Positions 24,773 through 36,796 of a stretch of 64,000 nucleotides of DNA are shown in pieces. The position numbers and the translations under genes were made by a program. The stretch's first letter is position 1, and each line of letters opens with the position of its first letter. This DNA comes from Acetivibrio thermocellus ATCC 27405 (GTDB taxonomy: Bacteria > Bacillota > Clostridia > Acetivibrionales > Acetivibrionaceae): assembly GCF_000015865.1 (NCBI RefSeq), contig NC_009012.1:248001-312000 (forward strand), written 5' to 3'. The notes under the pieces are model-generated. The model saw only the letters and a list, made by a program, of their open reading frames with translations, had not been told where the DNA came from and ran no database searches.

Positions 24773-26035
24773 ATGGAATTATATTATGTTAACACGAAGA
24801 AGAAAACAAAAATGAATTATCAAAGTATCATATTGAAATTAATGAAGTCCACATGTTGGCAAGAAACGGTCTTCTTGCTTTATCAATAGCTGCTGGAATA
24901 CAGGTCCTAAAAACAATGTTAGATGTAGAAGTTGAAGAGAAAGCAGGACCTAAAGGAAAGCACAACAAGGACAGAACCGTATACAGCTATGGAACTGAAA
25001 AAACGTCTGTGGTTTTGGACGGGCGAAAAGTAAAAATAGAACGTCCAAGGTTATGCGTATACAAAATAAGGAAGTTAACTTTGAAAGACTCGAACAGTTT
25101 CAGTCGTAGGACGCGTTAAATTTTAGGATATTTAAGCAAATACTAATGGGAATAACAACAAGGAACTATAACGAATGTCAGGATACAGTTCCTGGTATAG
25201 AGACATTTAGAGCAGGCAAAAGCAATGCTAGCCGCCGATTTGTGCAAGAAACAAGTAAACGTATGAAAGAATTTATTAGCCGCGGGCTTGATGATATTCA
25301 TATAATAATAATTGCTACACGGAGTAGGATTTGGAGAATATCATGTATTGGTTTCACTTCGAGTGAAGAGTACAGGAGAAAAAAGGTATTAGGAATAAAG
25401 GGAGCAGTGAGAACGTAGAAGTGTGCAAGAATTTTATAACATATATCTCATAAAAAGGGTGATAGAGCCGAAATGGCAACAGAATATTTATATTTGAAGG
25501 TTCAAAAGCGTTATTAAAGGCAGTAAAGGAGACTTTTAAGAACAGAGTGAAAATTAAAGATGTTAATTGCATAAGAAGTGAAATTTGGAAAGTTATTTGC
25601 TAGACAGTGAGAGAAGTAAAGTTATCAGAGAAATGAATGAGACATACACAGAATTTAATTATAAGGAAACGAAAAAGAATTTAGAAGGACTTGCTAGTTC
25701 ACTGGAACACAAGTACCTGGTGGAAGCGTCGAGTCTTGATGAAGGACTTGACGAGATATTGACGTTGCATCGATTAAAAGTTCCCGGCCTTTTGAGGATT
25801 TCATTTTTGACAACGAACTTAATAGAGTTAGCAAGAGAAACAGCGAGGGATATTATGGGAAGAGTGAGGGGATGGAGTAAAGGGAATCAAGTTTTAAGGT
25901 GGTTATCATGTGTTTTTTTACACGCGAGAAACAGTTTAAGCAAGTAAAAGGCTACAAATTATCACCTGTTCTTATTAGCGCTTTATTCCGCGGAGGAGGA
26001 ATTACAACCTACTTTAATAATACGCTGGTAGGATG
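24773..26035 (+). pseudogene. IS256 (mutator-type) transposase, degenerate
   Basis: Pieces in shifting frames make one mutator-type transposase. The start ATG at 24773 has AAAGGAG upstream. HMLARNGLLALSIAAGIQ, then VEEKAGPKGKHNKDRTVYSYG and VVLDGRKVKIERPR, come from one frame; MGITTRNYNECQD, then SRRFVQETSKRMKEF, follow at 25146. A later block at 25585-25947 begins MESYLLDSERSKVIREMNET, and the last piece ends near 26035 with SALFRGGGITTYFNNTLVG. At least five frameshifts or stops disrupt it. Clear terminal inverted repeats were not found. Confidence 0.85.
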
Positions 26036-29059: not shown

Positions 29060-29206
29060 CAAGAAATTTTTAGAGACAAACAGCGTAAAATAAGTTAAAA
29101 TTATATTTAACAAAAATTTTTATTTTTTTAAATAGACTTGTAAATGATAAAAAAGTCCGGATTTTAAAATACGCATATAATATTTATGCATGCAAAAGGA
29201 GTTAAT

Positions 29207-30913
29207 ATGATTAAAAGATTTATAGTGTTTTTTTCAATTTTACTTGTTTTAATTATACCGACGTGTGTAAAGGTGGATGCGTCCGATATTGCCAATCTTG
29301 GTTTTGTTGAAACCGATGTTATTTTGCAGCCTGACGGCAAGGCCATTGTCTCCTACACCGTGCGTTACAACCTGGTGCCGGGAAAGACAATGCTGGCATT
29401 TACCATGTCAGGGTTTGACAAGCTTAGCCCTGTTTTTGACACGGAAAATGCATGGGTTATAACTGACGACAACACCTCTTATCCCATCGATATAGTTAAT
29501 CTCGGCAATGGTTACTATGACATTATAAATTCAGGCAATAAAAGGCTGGGAGGAGAGTACCTCACCTACAAATTTCGTTTTGTTGCCGATATGGCTGCGG
29601 CCGGATATTTGAAAAAGACCACTGCCGAGGACGGACGAAGGCTTGTGGTGTTTGACTGGGCCCCTACCCAATGGGAGGAGGCAATGGAACATTATACTGT
29701 TACCGTAAACTATCCTTTGGCTTTCCCGAAAGAATCCGGCACAAGGGAAGAAGTTGAAAGTTTTCTTCTTGAGCATGACTTTGCCACGGAGAAGTGGATG
29801 AATGAAAAATACCTTATTGACTACAGGGTTCAGGTGCTGGATGGGACTCCGAGAGTTCAGATTTTGCTTCACAAGGAGAATTTGGCGGCTTATGACAAGT
29901 TTGAAATTAAACAGTACATTACAGAGGATATTTTTAATATAGATGATCCGGCAGATATTGATTTTACGCCGAATGAGTTTGGGAAAGGACCTTTCGACCG
30001 GTACGAAGAAAATATGGACAGGCAGCCGGAGAATGTGAACAATGGCTCTGAAGGCAGAATAATTTTATTGACAATCTTAATCGGACTTTTTGTAATGATC
30101 TACATAATAGTGGGAAGGAAGCACAGTTCCGTGATGAAAGCCCGGGAGACTTTGGATCAGATTCAATGGGCAAGGCAGGATTGGGATCCTCCAAAGATTG
30201 AAATAGCTTCGTTCAGGAAGGACGGAACTGTTGCCACCGGGCTTGATGCCGTTGAGATAGCACTTATAATAGGGATTCCCTATAAGAGGATTATTTCGGT
30301 TATTATTTCAAAACTTGTAGAGCAAGGGTTTCTTGAGGAAATTTCGGAAGAACCCCTGCGGGTGCGCCGCATTGAACATGACAATGCGTCAGCGGTCCTG
30401 AATGAATACGAATTAATGGTGTATGAAGCTGCAAAAGACGGAGAGATTGACGAGACGGAAATAGAAAATATAATTCAAAGATTGACGGATAATGTGCGGC
30501 AAAAGACGTGGGACTGCGACATTGAGGCCACCCGGAAGTACTATGCCGATAAAATGTCCGAGCTTTTGAAAAAGGAAAATGCGGACCCGGCACAGGCGGC
30601 AGACAATTCATATACCGGAGATGATTATATTTACGCCTGGCCGTACTGGTATTATTTCCACAGCGGTTTGGTGTATCACAGACAGAGAGACCGCCATGAA
30701 AGATATGAAAGGTCTGTACCGGTCAATCCGGGCAGGTTGTCGTTTAATTCAGCTTTAGACCCCGACACAGGCGCTTTTGCGTGCCATTCTGCGTGTCACT
30801 CGGCATGTCATGATGCGTGCCATTCGGCATGTCATTCGGCATGCCATTCTGCGTGTCACTCAGCCTGCCATTCGGCTTGTCACTCTGCTTGTGTAAGCGG
30901 GGGTGCAAGATGA
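29207..30913 (+). CDS. DUF2207-type membrane protein with a (CHSA)n C-terminal tail; likely radical SAM substrate
   Basis: 568 residues. Signal peptide (about 1-26), an extracytoplasmic beta domain (about 30-270) typical of DUF2207, one transmembrane helix (about 285-304), then a cytoplasmic region with a winged-helix-like part ([20 protein letters not shown]) and an aromatic segment ([12 protein letters not shown]). The last 44 residues are unique: nine ACH(S/D) units and one ACVS (525-564), then GGAR. The ten cysteines are exactly four residues apart, on the cytoplasmic side, where the adjacent radical SAM enzyme could act. The start ATG 29207 follows AAAAGGAG; an in-frame upstream ATG overlaps this site. 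The stop overlaps the enzyme gene by 4 nt. Confidence 0.85.
30779..30898 (+). repeat. Ten 12-bp repeats encoding Ala-Cys-His-Ser units
   Basis: Ten tandem codon quartets; unit 3 has Asp in place of Ser and unit 10 reads ACVS. Third codon positions vary freely (TGC/TGT, CAT/CAC, GCG/GCA/GCC/GCT, TCT/TCG/TCA), so the protein repeat is kept by selection and is not a fresh DNA slippage product. Confidence 0.95.
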
Positions 30914-32247
30914 CGAAGACTGAGAAAAAACTGGCCTGGGTTGATGGGTTTATTGCCCGGATAAAACCGTATGTATATGTCAGGCTTAAAGACAATGTGC
31001 TGATTCGTATGCCCAATGAAGCGTTTAAGCTGAATACCACCGGAGCAAGGGTTATTGACCACATTCTTAAAGGTGGTTCGGTGTATGATTTTGTAAAGAT
31101 ACGCCCTGACGCCCGGGAAACCGAGATGCAGCTTGAACTTTTTTTCGTGGATTTTTTGCGGGTGTGGAACAAGGAAGTCTGTGAGAATTACACAACTGCT
31201 GCGGTACACAGGGTTGAATTCAGTAAGGGATATATTGAGCTTCCTGTCTTGTCGGAAGTTGCTCTTACCTATGCCTGCAATATAAAATGCCGTTTTTGTT
31301 ATGCCGGATGTACCAAGGTAAAAAAGAACAGGGAGCTTGACAAGGAAGGATTTAAAAAGGTTCTTGACATTATCCGGTACGAGGCTGAGGTACCCAGTGT
31401 ATCCTTTACGGGAGGGGAGCCTCTTCTTAACAAAAATCTTCCCGAACTTATAAAATATGCCTCGAAGGCCAACGGGATGAGAGTTAACCTTATAACCAAC
31501 GGCACGCTGATAACTACCAAAAAAGCAAAAGAGCTTGCCAGGGCAGGTCTTGCGTCGGCGCAGGTGAGTATTGAATCTCCGTATGCTTCGGAGCATGATT
31601 CCATTACGGGAGTGCCGGGTTCCCATGAGGCCTCGATATCGGGATTTAAAGCCCTTAAGGCAGCAGGAGTTGCGGTTCATCCTCACTTTACGATTTGCAG
31701 GCTGAATCAAAAATCAGCCGTTGAATATCCGGAGTTTTGCAAAGAGATAGGTTCTGACAGGTTCTCTGCCAATCTTATTATACCTGCGGGGCGGGGCGAT
31801 GACGCTGAATTGACAATTCGTTATCGTGATATTGGAAAAATAGTGGAGGATATACGAAAAAAGGCTTTAGAGGCCGGTGTTAAATTTATGTGGTATTCTC
31901 CAACTCCACTGTGCTTGTTTAATCCAATTCCTGTGGGGCTTGGCAATAAAGGATGCAGTGCCTGTGAAGGATTGCTTTCCGTCGATCCTGAAGGAAATGT
32001 TCTGCCATGTTCAAGCTGGGCGGAGCCTGTGGGGAATTTGCTGGATGAAGGCTTTGAAGCCGTATGGTTTAAAAAGCGCTCCAAATGGATAAGGGACAAG
32101 GAAGCCGCACCTGAAAAGTGCAAGGATTGCAAACATTTTGCGGTATGTCAGGGAGCCTGTCCCCTGTATTTCAATATACATGGATACGAAGAGCTTTATG
32201 ATTCATGGAAATCTTTTGGTTTATGTAAGGAAAGGAGTAGCGTATGA
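30910..32247 (+). CDS. Radical SAM/SPASM peptide-modifying enzyme with PqqD-like N-terminus
   Basis: 445 residues. N-terminal about 20-85 ([20 protein letters not shown]) resembles the PqqD/RRE peptide-recognition fold. The radical SAM cluster motif CNIKCRFC gives Cys123, Cys127 and Cys130. The C-terminus has a textbook SPASM pattern: Cys335, Cys349, Cys352 and Cys367, then C404-x2-C407-x5-C413-x3-C417 and Cys439, binding auxiliary Fe-S clusters. Such enzymes make thioether or C-C crosslinks in peptides. ATG 30910 overlaps the stop of the Cys-repeat gene (ATGA), so translation is coupled; the repeats are the probable substrate. The enzyme stop again overlaps the next gene by 4 nt. Confidence 0.9.
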
Positions 32248-33239
32248 GTGGCTTGAGTCGTATACCGGGTTTTCCGTCTCCGGAAAGAGAGGATAGTTTG
32301 AAATTTTATGTGCTAAATAGTCTTCCATATTCGGCGAGGATGATTATATATTTACTGCTTGTAGCCTTTGGCTTTTTAATTCAGTATATAACGATGAATC
32401 CGTGGCCCGGGGCTTTTTTGTTGATTTGTGCAACGATTTTGGGTTTTGTTCGTGGTTTTGACGGTCATGACAGGATTAAAGGTTTTAAAACCGACAAAAA
32501 TTGGACGACTGTTGACATGGACCGAATTCATGAAATCAGAAATCTTGATTATGCGATAACAAAATGGGACAGAGATGTTTTTGACATAAGCAATGCGTCA
32601 GGAGCTTTGGTGTTTGTATTCTTTATGGCTGTTTTGTTTGTGCTCTCACTGATTATGTTTACGATACCGGGATGTTTTCGGGTGGGAATGATTTTAATAA
32701 CGGATTCGGCTGTCCTTGTACTGCCTGTGTGGTTTAGTGGAATACGACGGGTTTTTAAACAGCGGAAACTCATGATAAAAATTGATATTATTCAAGATAT
32801 GGAGAAATATTTCGCAACTGTCAGGAAGGAAGGAGAACATTTCAAGCCTGCATTGCTGCTTGCCCGGAACAGAAAAGGAGAGTGTATGCCGAAAGATGCG
32901 CGTTTTACCGTTTTCTTTGACGGTATGCCGGCTGATTTTTACGGTGTCCAGGCGCAGATAAACATAAATGAGGTGCAGGGAGGGTATTATCCGTATTTCT
33001 ATTGTGTTATACCCGCTAAAACGGGATTTGGACTTCGAGAGTTTTTAAATAGAATTCAAAAGGGTAAAAATATTGTTGTAGAGTTTCAGGAAGACGGACA
33101 GGCAGAGGTAATTGTCATTCGACAGTATACTACGAAGACATCGGGATATCACACAGACACGAAAAGTTGCAAAAATATACTTGTTACGGCCCTTGCGGCT
33201 GCAAGAATTATACTTGAAGCAAAACGGAATGGTTTGTAA
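32244..33239 (+). CDS. Unknown membrane protein coupled to the radical SAM gene
   Basis: 331 residues with four hydrophobic segments in two pairs (about 32-52, 56-73, 120-142, 146-165). A cytoplasmic C-terminal half (about 180-331) looks alpha/beta (FTVFFDGMPADFYGVQAQININ, KTGFGLREFL) and carries no catalytic motif I recognise. The start overlaps the radical SAM stop (ATGA), implying translation in fixed ratio. It may hold the modified protein or sense its state; this is inference. No family recognised. Confidence 0.75.
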   Translation: MSGLSRIPGFPSPEREDSLKFYVLNSLPYSARMIIYLLLVAFGFLIQYITMNPWPGAFLLICATILGFVRGFDGHDRIKGFKTDKNWTTVDMDRIHEIRNLDYAITKWDRDVFDISNASGALVFVFFMAVLFVLSLIMFTIPGCFRVGMILITDSAVLVLPVWFSGIRRVFKQRKLMIKIDIIQDMEKYFATVRKEGEHFKPALLLARNRKGECMPKDARFTVFFDGMPADFYGVQAQININEVQGGYYPYFYCVIPAKTGFGLREFLNRIQKGKNIVVEFQEDGQAEVIVIRQYTTKTSGYHTDTKSCKNILVTALAAARIILEAKRNGL

Positions 33240-34264: not shown

Positions 34265-36796
34265 ATGAAAATTGCGTTTTCAACACTTGGTTGTCCTGAC
34301 TTCAGTTGGACGGACATTTATTCCATGGCTAAGGATTTTGGATTTAACGGTATCGAAATCCGTGGTCTTGGAAAGGAAATTTTCGCCGTGAAAGCACAGC
34401 CTTTTACCGAATCAGAGCTGCCTAAGACTTTAAAAAAGCTTTCGGAACTTCGTCTTGAAATTCCGTGCTTTTCTTCGGGATGCTGTTTGAAGTTTTCCGA
34501 GAATGCCGAGAAAAATTATGAGGAGATTGTAGAGTATATTACGCTTGCTTCCAAAACAGGAACTCCTTTTGTCCGTGTTCTTGGCGACCTTGAGCCGGAA
34601 CCTCAGGGAGAAGTTGATGACAATGTTGTTATTGAGGCACTGAAAAAACTTGCCCCCATTGCGGAAGAAAAAGGTGTAACGCTTCTTGTGGAAACCAATG
34701 GTGTATATTCCGACACAAAACGTCTGTGTGAGCTGCTTGACAATGTGGCCAGTGATGCAGTGGCGGCTTTGTGGGATGTACACCACCCGTATAGATTTGC
34801 CGGTGAGACTCCCGGAAAGACGGTGCAAAATCTTGGAGCATACATTAAATATGTACATATCAAGGACTCGGTTGTTGAAAACGGAAAAATTCATTATCGC
34901 ATGCTTGGTGAAGGTGATTTGCCAATTGACGATATCATGATGGCACTTCGTTCAATCAACTATGAAGGATACATTTCTCTGGAATGGGTTAAACGGTGGG
35001 CTGCGGACCTCGACGATGCCGGAGTTGTCTTCCCCAATTTTGCAAATTACATGAGCCGCTACATTAAAAAAAGCGAAGTGAGAGGGCGCTTGTTTGACAA
35101 TGCGAGAAAGACCGGAAAGTATATTTGGGAGAAAGACACGCTTATTGATTTGACATTCCCTCAGCTTTTGGACCGTGTTGTTGAAGAGTTTCCCGACCAG
35201 TATGCCTTCAAGTATACCACAACCGATTATACCCGGACTTATGCCCAGTTCAGGGATGATGTCGATACTTTTGCAAGATCCCTGATAGCTCTGGGAGTAA
35301 AACCGGGAGACCATGTTGCCATCTGGGCTACCAACGTACCCCAATGGTTTATTACATTCTGGGCGACAACTAAGATTGGAGCGGTGCTTGTCACCGTAAA
35401 CACCGCATATAAAATTTATGAGGTTGAATATCTTCTCCGTCAGTCGGATACCCACACACTGGTTATGATTGACGGATTTAAGGATTCGAATTATGTTGAA
35501 ATTATTAAAGAACTTTGCCCTGAGCTTGAAACGGCGGAGCCCGGAAAACCTCTGCATATCAAGAGGCTTCCTTTCCTGCGCAATATCATTACTATTGAGT
35601 CAAAACAAAAAGGCTGCATTTCGTGGGATGAAGCAATTGCCCTGGCGGAAAAAGTGCCTATTGAGGAGGTTCAACGCCGTGCTCTTGCGGTTAACAGGCA
35701 TGATGTCTGCAATATGCAGTATACTTCAGGAACCACCGGATTCCCAAAAGGTGTTATGCTTACCCATTACAATGTTATTAACAACGGAAAATGCATTGGA
35801 GACTGTATGGACCTTTCCACTGCCGACCGCATGCTGATCCAGGTTCCGATGTTCCACTGCTTTGGAATGGTGCTTTCAATGATAGCTTGTGTGACTCATG
35901 GTTCCACAATGTGTCCGATACCGTATTTTTCACCGAAGGTGGCTTTGGATTGTATTAACCGTGAGAAGATAACCGTCTGCAACGGTGTTCCGACGATGTT
36001 TATTGCAATGCTGGAACACGAAGATTTCAAAAAGACAGATTTCTCTCACATGAGAACGGGAATTATGGCCGGAAGCCCGTGTCCTGTAAAGGTTATGCAG
36101 GATGTGGTGGACAAGATGAACATGAAGGAGATAACCATTGTATACGGTCAGACTGAGGCTTCACCGGGCTGTACCCAGAGCCGTGTGGATGATCCTATTG
36201 AGGTGCGTGTGAATACTGTCGGACGTCCGCTTCCCGGTATTGAATGCAAGATTGTGGATCCTCAAACTGGTGAGGAATTGCCGGATAATACCGACGGAGA
36301 GTTTGTTGCCCGCGGATATAATATTATGAAAGGTTACTACAAGATGCCTGAAGCGACGGCGGCAGCAATTGACAAAGACGGCTGGCTCCATACCGGTGAC
36401 ATGGCAAGGCGTGATGAAAACGGCAACTACAAGATAACCGGCCGTATCAAGGACATGATAATACGTGGCGGTGAAAATATTTATCCGAAGGAAATTGAAG
36501 ACTTTATATACACTCATCCGAAAGTAAAGGATGTTCAGGTTATAGGTGTTCCCGACAAGCAATATGGTGAAGAGATTATGGCATGGGTAATCCTTAAGGA
36601 CGGCGAAACAATGACTGCCGAAGAGCTTCAGGAATATGTTCGCTCCAATATGGCAAAACACAAGACGCCTCGATACGTCAAATTTGTTACGGAATTCCCC
36701 ATGAATGCGGCAGGAAAGGTATTAAAGTACAAAATGCGTGAGATGGCAGTTGACATGTTGTCCCTCCATGAAGCCAATTCAATCGTTACGGCTTAA
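34265..36796 (+). CDS. Fusion of TIM-barrel sugar-phosphate isomerase-like domain and acyl-CoA synthetase
   Basis: 843 residues. About 1-275 is an AP-endonuclease-2/xylose-isomerase-like TIM barrel (FGFNGIEIRGLG; LVETNGVYSDT; LWDVHHPYRF; YVHIKDSV; GEGDLPID; GYISLEW), keeping the metal-binding Glu, Asp and His pattern. About 295-843 is an AMP-forming acyl-CoA synthetase: P-loop YTSGTTGFPKG at 486-496, YGQTEASPG, DGWLHTGDMARRDENG, KDMIIRGGENIYPKEIE and the catalytic Lys in NAAGKVLKYKM. It should activate a carboxylic acid to its CoA thioester; substrate unknown. A T-box controls it, which links it to amino-acid supply. No frameshift divides the two domains. Confidence 0.88.
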   Translation: MKIAFSTLGCPDFSWTDIYSMAKDFGFNGIEIRGLGKEIFAVKAQPFTESELPKTLKKLSELRLEIPCFSSGCCLKFSENAEKNYEEIVEYITLASKTGTPFVRVLGDLEPEPQGEVDDNVVIEALKKLAPIAEEKGVTLLVETNGVYSDTKRLCELLDNVASDAVAALWDVHHPYRFAGETPGKTVQNLGAYIKYVHIKDSVVENGKIHYRMLGEGDLPIDDIMMALRSINYEGYISLEWVKRWAADLDDAGVVFPNFANYMSRYIKKSEVRGRLFDNARKTGKYIWEKDTLIDLTFPQLLDRVVEEFPDQYAFKYTTTDYTRTYAQFRDDVDTFARSLIALGVKPGDHVAIWATNVPQWFITFWATTKIGAVLVTVNTAYKIYEVEYLLRQSDTHTLVMIDGFKDSNYVEIIKELCPELETAEPGKPLHIKRLPFLRNIITIESKQKGCISWDEAIALAEKVPIEEVQRRALAVNRHDVCNMQYTSGTTGFPKGVMLTHYNVINNGKCIGDCMDLSTADRMLIQVPMFHCFGMVLSMIACVTHGSTMCPIPYFSPKVALDCINREKITVCNGVPTMFIAMLEHEDFKKTDFSHMRTGIMAGSPCPVKVMQDVVDKMNMKEITIVYGQTEASPGCTQSRVDDPIEVRVNTVGRPLPGIECKIVDPQTGEELPDNTDGEFVARGYNIMKGYYKMPEATAAAIDKDGWLHTGDMARRDENGNYKITGRIKDMIIRGGENIYPKEIEDFIYTHPKVKDVQVIGVPDKQYGEEIMAWVILKDGETMTAEELQEYVRSNMAKHKTPRYVKFVTEFPMNAAGKVLKYKMREMAVDMLSLHEANSIVTA

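Follow-up and report, generated by a model that had tools for sequence, protein, structure and literature searches.

A conserved Cys-repeat tail on a membrane protein and a radical SAM/SPASM enzyme that probably modifies it: a gene pair of Acetivibrio thermocellus found across Bacteria and Archaea

In the current study, a window of 64,000 nucleotides (nt) from Acetivibrio thermocellus ATCC 27405 (assembly GCF_000015865.1, contig NC_009012.1, positions 248,001 to 312,000 of the forward strand; positions below are those of the window) was analysed with regard to three adjoining genes, which encode a membrane protein ending in a Cys-rich repeat, a radical S-adenosylmethionine (SAM)/SPASM enzyme and a second membrane protein (Table 1). 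As the original prediction for this locus had stated, the tail gene and the enzyme gene overlap by 4 nt, the latter starting at 30910 within the motif ATGA, and the third gene (32244) overlaps the end of the enzyme gene, likewise by 4 nt. The mechanically chosen open reading frame (ORF) start of the tail gene at 29186 was rejected in favour of 29207, which follows a AAAAGGAG box (read by eye) and looks better.

Table 1. Positions of the three genes and of the domains and motifs recognised in their products (aa, amino acids; RRE, RiPP recognition element; RiPP, ribosomally synthesised and post-translationally modified peptide)
Feature	Position	Strand	Size and basis
Tail-bearing membrane protein	29207..30913	+	568 aa; ORF call and alignment of 58 proteins
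Same membrane protein, longer reading	from upstream ATG 29186		575 aa
Predicted extracytoplasmic N-terminal beta domain	29276..29938	+	residues 31-251 of the 575-aa reading; distant DUF2207
Predicted transmembrane segment	30059..30115	+	residues 292-310, past the signal segment; positive charges after it; hydropathy and charge counts
Conserved, predicted cytosolic domain (DWxPPK ... EAAxLL ... KxWDCDxEATK)	30137..30589	+	alignment
C-terminal repeat tail ACH(S/D)x9-ACVS-GGAR, proposed modification substrate	30779..30910	+	
Radical SAM/SPASM enzyme, clade I	30910..32247	+	445 aa
Putative RRE/PqqD-like N-terminal domain of the enzyme	30934..31167	+	residues 9-86; AlphaFold2 model and PqqD in relatives
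Radical SAM CxxxCxxC motif (C123-C130)	31276..31299	+	invariant in 77
SPASM region, seven invariant Cys (335-417)	31912..32160	+	
Third operon gene, membrane protein of unnamed family	32244..33239	+	331 aa

The final 44 residues of the membrane protein match, residue for residue, the nine ACH(S/D) units and one ACVS that had been described, with ten Cys at exact four-residue spacing and nine His. The codons vary as freely as had been noted, several being used per residue (GCG, GCA, GCC and GCT; TGC and TGT; TCT, TCG, TCA and AGC). When the protein was shuffled 10,000 times, the longest run of Cys with a period of four was 4, reached once, against the 10 observed, and the six frames of the window contain no second place where four or more Cys follow one another at intervals of four residues. 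Two relatives (L002 and L012) have all 44 tail residues in common with the window protein despite 15 and 12 silently changed codons, respectively, and the other six of the eight relatives compared show 17 to 28 silent codons with two to seven residue differences, the larger of these counts stemming from shorter tails. On the basis of the shuffles and of the silent codon change, an origin by chance or as low-complexity sequence was rejected; the tail is under selection.

The 107 closed tails of loci L001-L135 contain 787 counted units, all 787 with Ala at position 4 and 777 with His at position 2, an invariance that is in part a matter of choice, as the scan pattern demanded CH.A in three and a half units; serine is spelt by both codon families. 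Sets selected through the enzyme, and therefore free of that bias, carry the same units, with variants such as CVSHDA and CVHSA. When 58 of the complete tail proteins (L039 excluded), with identities of 22-63% to the window protein, are aligned, conservation is highest in the tail, whose C, H and A are invariant over seven units. A tail of approximately 35-47 residues has remained nearly frozen from clostridia to Asgard archaea on host proteins that are otherwise mostly about 30% identical, and such conservation marks a chemical function that evolution keeps from drifting.

The topology of the tail-bearing protein was predicted from hydropathy and charge counts. A hydrophobic N-terminal segment is present in 50 of 59 tail proteins, and Lys plus Arg are more numerous after the transmembrane segment than before it in 38 of the 59, the opposite being true of 10 and the numbers being equal in 11; these counts favour a tail in the cytosol, on the presumed side of the enzyme. 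The predicted signal segment, the single transmembrane segment and this charge distribution support the earlier placement of the tail at the cytoplasmic end. The DUF2207 label of the original prediction holds in a looser form: the window protein scores 17.5 bits against Pfam DUF2207 (PF09972), below the gathering cut-off of 24.4, but it is a distant relative of that family, which matches 14 of the 58 tail proteins (E <= 0.01; best 4.1e-7). Similarly, TIGR04222 (near_uncomplex) gives 13.4 bits on the window protein against a cut-off of 43 and matches 10 of the 58 (E <= 0.01; best 1.2e-7), and a profile comparison by hhalign relates the cytosolic domain to three TIGR04222 proteins (78.7%, E 1.7e-5). 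No NCBIfam (June 2026) or Pfam family exceeds its cut-off on the window tail protein. Profile searches of the PDB returned no match at E <= 1 for the tail protein, and weak matches (best E of about 0.01) for the cytosolic domain and the third gene.

The AlphaFold2 model of the tail protein has a predicted local distance difference test (pLDDT) score of 82 and a confident outer domain (blocks 41-250 at 93-98), whose modelled fold resembles Ost1/ribophorin I (7oci_A; VIA-align Z 16.2, root-mean-square deviation (rmsd) 2.9 over 184 residues) and the N-domains of M1 aminopeptidases; this shared fold does not give a function. Ost1/ribophorin I belongs to the eukaryotic oligosaccharyltransferase, and the outer-domain family is common in the Asgard sample described below. 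A weak hint, by analogy, of a stress or redox role comes from a DUF2207 mutant of S. mutans, which is sensitive to low pH, methyl viologen and peroxide (PMC10457818), the window protein being only a distant relative of DUF2207.

The second gene encodes, as had been proposed, a radical SAM enzyme with a complete SPASM Cys pattern: Pfam matches Radical_SAM (4.4e-25) and SPASM (3.8e-9) in the window enzyme, SPASM is found in 76 of 77 aligned enzymes, and both the CxxxCxxC motif (C123, C127 and C130) and seven further Cys (335, 349, 367, 404, 407, 413 and 417) are invariant in the 77. The PqqD-like N-terminus fared less evenly, as Pfam PqqD has no match in the window enzyme itself but is found in 13 of the 77 relatives (E <= 0.01), and the modelled fold agrees with it. 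The AlphaFold2 model, built from the 77-member alignment (pLDDT 92), was compared with known structures by Foldseek and VIA-align; the best neighbours are SkfB (Z 27.2, rmsd 3.8, 343 residues; model residues 20-419) and the streptide maturase SuiB (Z 25.7, rmsd 3.8, 373 residues), whose match spans model residues 13-431 and so covers the N-terminal RRE region. The list also holds anSME and, lower, the epimerase EpeE. The enzyme therefore models as RRE plus radical SAM plus SPASM, and the features of a maturase are present, namely the CxxxCxxC core, the Cys of the SPASM auxiliary clusters and, as modelled, the N-terminal RRE fold. No NCBIfam equivalog (June 2026) was found for it.

The spread of the pair was followed from the tail side by an exact-pattern scan of genome contigs at species level, which returned at least 115 stretches. 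Eighteen of the 115 lack a CHSACHSA frame and were dropped before counting, although some may be real tails that are cut, such as L052 at a contig end. At least 97 in-frame CHSACHSA tails remain, C-terminal in 95 and cut by the contig end in two (L089 and L127), from at least 27 named phyla, including Candidatus Heimdallarchaeota and Thermoproteota, with 14 loci that have no phylum in the taxonomy; a purely local clostridial oddity was rejected on this ground. Among the matches listed, the enzyme lies directly 3' in 86 of the 97 loci, and in 62 of 78 its mechanically chosen start is at most 20 nt away from the stop of the tail gene. In six of the other 11 loci the stretch stops no more than 318 nt from the tail gene, and in five it continues for 1,209-5,911 nt without the enzyme; 10 of the 11 genomes nevertheless hold one enzyme of the clade, in G061 and G062 directly 3' beyond the stretch. 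Exactly one clade enzyme was found in 19 of 20 tail genomes searched, and the tail protein, mostly one each, in 20 of 20. Close orthologs of the enzyme occur in 11 of 13 genomes of the same family, with the tail in 11 of 11. The pairing proposed in the original prediction is thus real, but its local picture was too small, as the system spans Bacteria and Archaea and often includes a third gene. Two loci appear to have suffered decay or assembly error: in G006 (L284) a frame break splits the tail gene, and the ORF of the enzyme continues into the third gene, its C-terminal region being unmatched, and in G004 (L012) the enzyme ORF is broken.

From the enzyme side, a profile of 77 members (L023 and L133 excluded) was run at E <= 1e-60 against 1,239 genomes in six phylum samples drawn regardless of the tail, the first 5-11 candidates per genome being scored. 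Matches were obtained in 14 of 299 genomes round the window's own, 7 of 149 round a spirochaete, 9 of 199 round a planctomycete, 27 of 199 round Aminicenantes, 5 of 198 round Desulfobulbus and 68 of 195 (approximately one third) round the Heimdallarchaeota genome G075, which was taken to represent the Asgard phylum. After the window's genome, the five other centres and G066 and G067 (known from their tails) were left out, 122 genomes were counted. Enzymes scoring above 400 bits were assigned to clade I, whose whole genes reach at least 518 bits, and the others, at about 254-357 bits, to clade II, apart from a few contig-edge fragments: the pieces L205/L206 (one gene, G557) and L234/L303 (G733) were placed in clade I by bits per residue, and one Asgard fragment (G862) is in neither count. 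Pfam PqqD exceeds its gathering score in one clade II enzyme (L276) and has no match in two others.

Clade I occurs in 50 genomes (own phylum 3, spirochaete 6, planctomycete 7, Aminicenantes 6, Asgard 28), and a CHSA tail is present in 49 of them (3/3, 6/6, 7/7, 6/6 and 27/28, respectively), 44 within the stretch round the enzyme and five, all Asgard, elsewhere in the genome (Asgard: 22 in the stretch). In the remaining genome, G832, just an N-terminal piece is visible. Four of the 50 loci had also been met from the tail side; without them the tail is present in 45 of 46. The tail gene of the Asgard clade I loci is divergent from the enzyme gene and not upstream of it. Clade II occurs in 71 genomes (own phylum 10, Aminicenantes 19, Desulfobulbus 4, Asgard 38), of which 63 hold a different tail, (CA)n, as in GGGCACACACAGCACACAGGGR (10/10, 19/19, 4/4 and 30/38), 60 of these tails lying within the stretch and three elsewhere in the genome (Asgard: 27 and three); of the eight without it, two have a tail-protein match with no visible (CA)n end and six have no match. 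No crossed pair, of clade I with (CA)n or clade II with CHSA, was seen in the stretches read. The original prediction had named, as the observation that would count against it, homologous enzymes commonly found without a Cys-repeat neighbour, and that did not occur in either clade.

The sister system, in which DUF2207-like proteins end in (CA)n (GGGCACACACAGCACACAGGGR, SCACACACACASSGGCT, CACVSCACACVSCACACACAGGGGAGC), is found beside clade II enzymes in L183-L192, L242-L264, L274-L280 and others, and no NCBIfam model exceeded its cut-off among the three sister tail proteins and three clade II enzymes scanned. A tree of 62 CHSA, 46 CACA and 8 outgroup rows, for which the sample comprised 34 tail-side loci and, from Asgard, the first 8 stretches of clade I and 16 of clade II (rows without a tail in the stretch excluded), splits the tail types by a single change (Shimodaira-Hasegawa-like approximate likelihood ratio test (SH-aLRT) support 79 on the CHSA side and 99 on the CACA side; several outgroup branches are long). 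Tail type is therefore tightly paired with enzyme clade, having switched once in this sample, and this natural switch constitutes a ready-made test of specificity.

Among the matches listed, a homolog of the third gene lies on the same strand in 73 of the 97 tail loci, and in 59 of the 69 whose stretch extends for 2,600 nt or more on the 3' side. Of the other ten among these 69, seven have a (C)-type variant tail ending, and in three (L070, L106 and L131) the enzyme is not linked to the tail gene; next to that unlinked enzyme, G063 and G070 have the third gene. None was seen in the 28 Asgard clade I stretches or in three spirochaete loci. Neither Pfam nor NCBIfam gave a family for the window's third protein, and its 65 relatives produced four weak single-member Pfam matches. 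Clustering of the flanking ORFs revealed nothing broadly shared beyond the tail gene, the enzyme and the third gene, the widest other cluster covering eight loci, and the shared neighbours included no short precursor, protease or exporter; deducing a function from neighbours was dropped for this reason. A conserved protein of approximately 130 aa (MKLPFGEIENGILKMKFSSADYSVATV...) is encoded just 5' of the tail gene in L041, L066, L070 and L134, and a different upstream gene, of approximately 210 aa, is common to eight loci, mostly of spirochaetes.

The proposal that the tail is the substrate of the enzyme is supported by the pairing as seen from both sides (97 tails and 1,239 genomes), and the tail is very probably modified, that is, chemically rewritten, by the adjoining enzyme. 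We consider it probable that the tail is a RiPP-like core held in cis on a receptor-like membrane protein and most likely crosslinked through its Cys, and for thioethers being the product of the modification the chances appear evenly balanced. The membrane protein would be made with a signal segment, a beta domain outside, one membrane crossing and a cytosolic domain ending in the repeat. The cytosolic, RRE-bearing enzyme would then dock on it, possibly at the cytosolic domain, which would stand in for the leader as the tail would for the core, and would move along the repeat, altering it unit by unit. The likeliest product would be thioethers that link every Cys to a residue close by. Ala, strictly conserved beside every Cys, is proposed first as partner, since the (CA)n stretches of the sister system consist of nothing else besides Cys; in CHSA tails the role could also fall to Ser, Asp or His. 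The tail would in this way become a redox-active array in the cytosol, stiff or able to hold metal and anchored on a membrane receptor, and the third membrane-bound protein, where present, may be the partner of the finished tail.

Several observations weigh against enzymatic modification of the tail as just outlined: (i) AlbA rejects Ala as a partner residue (PMC8172795), which weakens the Ala proposal; (ii) the nearest NCBIfam models to the enzyme are not sactisynthases and include heme b synthase (146 bits, cut-off 500), NirJ2 (135 bits, cut-off 500) and TIGR04347 (131 bits, cut-off 525); (iii) the modelled helix of the tail is of low confidence (pLDDT of about 39-45); (iv) 8 of the 71 genomes with clade II and 1 of the 50 with clade I showed no tail, and the tail genome G069 has no clade enzyme, these genomes being mostly drafts; (v) in the tail genomes G063, G067 and G070 the enzyme is unlinked to the tail gene; (vi) the tail-side sample was chosen by its CH.A units, so that their invariance there is partly selected; and (vii) as the tail-type switch is one event in the tree, the pairing does not amount to many independent trials.

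It is also conceivable, though rather unlikely, that the enzyme modifies the tail without forming thioethers, for instance by epimerisation of Ala or other residues or by an anSME-like oxidation of Cys, an explanation that overlaps with the one preferred here. The presence of anSME and EpeE among the structural neighbours would agree with it, as would TvgB, a radical SAM enzyme that acts on a TVGG repeat and forms a product other than a thioether (PMC9062424). Every unit of both tail types is, however, built round a Cys, and the two best structural neighbours, SkfB (according to PMC8172795) and SuiB, crosslink peptides.

Ten Cys and nine His within 44 residues, together with the sequence similarity of the enzyme to radical SAM enzymes of heme pathways, could instead indicate a bare metal- or cluster-binding array, the enzyme acting on a cofactor or on the third protein. 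This we regard as improbable, since the (CA)n stretches of the sister system contain no His, yet tail and enzyme are still paired there, since the enzyme is modelled with an RRE-type maturase fold, and since the pairing is kept where the third gene was not seen. A multihaem reading of the repeat (CX3CH) was likewise put low, as the tail is predicted to lie inside and the sister tails are largely without His. Far less probable still is an arrangement with the roles reversed, in which an enzyme placed at the membrane would make use of the tail, for example to be tethered, to relay electrons or to receive a cluster: the RRE could bind the tail without modifying it, and the 20 genomes searched mostly hold one enzyme and one tail protein each, but two tail genes share one enzyme in G060, and RRE-bearing radical SAM/SPASM enzymes, to our knowledge, modify what they bind. 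Chance proximity of a repeat expansion and an unrelated enzyme, for which no supporting point was found, can be dismissed, the same pairing being found across at least 27 named phyla of both domains, also where the genes are unlinked or divergent.

Modification of the tail by its paired enzyme would follow the same logic as known pairs of tails and tail-modifying radical enzymes, of which it would represent a new, pan-domain form of unusual breadth and conservation. The closest published idea that was found concerns certain TIGR04222 membrane proteins, whose Cys-rich C-termini have been proposed to be modified by MNIO enzymes (PMC12452194). Both cases involve a membrane protein with a Cys-rich, low-complexity C-terminus, often encoded beside a peptide-modifying metalloenzyme according to that source, and the cytosolic domain described here aligns with TIGR04222 proteins; in contrast, the modifier here would be a radical SAM/SPASM enzyme, the repeat is strictly CHSA (or CA) and not Gly/Ser-rich, and the tail is predicted to lie inside, theirs in the periplasm. 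One TIGR04222 protein (L356, G589) has a GGC-rich tail, and the next ORF resembles, by eye, an MNIO/DUF692 enzyme, as published for that family.

A His-Xaa-Ser system in which HxsA goes with HxsB, HxsC and HxsD was reportedly described by Haft and Basu. There, too, a repeat-bearing protein is encoded beside radical SAM enzymes (PMC9062424), whereas here one enzyme lies beside the tail gene and the repeat has a Cys every four residues; no Hxs model exceeded its cut-off in five genes of the window (HxsC4, 84 bits against 500). The same Cys spacing characterises TIGR04117 (Syntroph_Cxxx), an annotated radical SAM target with a model length of 98, against which the window protein scores 15.0 bits and the best relative tail 20.8 bits (cut-off 50). 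The TIGR04117 CXXX targets are not known to have a membrane receptor body. SkfB, SuiB, CteB, AlbA and PapB share with the present enzyme the architecture of RRE, radical SAM and SPASM/twitch domains, and freyrasin, the product of PapB, contains six Cys-Asp thioethers (PMC8172795). In contrast to sactipeptides and ranthipeptides, the proposed core here is the C-terminus of a 568-aa membrane protein and not part of a short leader-core precursor. QhpD is a radical SAM enzyme that acts on a large protein instead of a short peptide, as the enzyme described here would, the substrate of QhpD being a subunit of a quinohemoprotein that, unlike the tail protein, has no repeat. The large-protein substrate of the cysteine tryptophylquinone (CTQ) system and the homology of PapB to QhpD are mentioned in PMC8172795. 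No paper on CHSA or (CA)n tails was found in the literature searched, which excluded subscription papers and preprints, and no NCBIfam or Pfam family names the repeat, in agreement with the original prediction, which cited no description of it.

Modification of the tail by the enzyme, if it takes place, would represent a widespread modification of a protein, and not of a peptide, on a membrane receptor, outside the natural-product setting that is usual for such enzymes. The host is a laboratory organism that can be cultured. More tentatively, and with a likelihood that we place somewhat short of even, there may be an ancient general class of tail-modified membrane receptors, in which a DUF2207/TIGR04222-like scaffold bears Cys-repeat arrays put in place by various radical or iron enzymes, a separate one for each type of tail (CHSA, CA and perhaps GGC), the CHSA/CA branch being common to Bacteria and to about a third of the sampled Asgard genomes and the arrays serving as cytosolic redox or metal sensors or wires.

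Elsewhere in the window, an 843-aa ORF (34265-36796, + strand) appears by eye to be an unusual fusion of a sugar-phosphate isomerase/epimerase-like domain and an acyl-CoA synthetase (AMP-binding) domain, and a row of short ORFs (24853-25947, + strand) resembles, again by eye, a decayed transposase.

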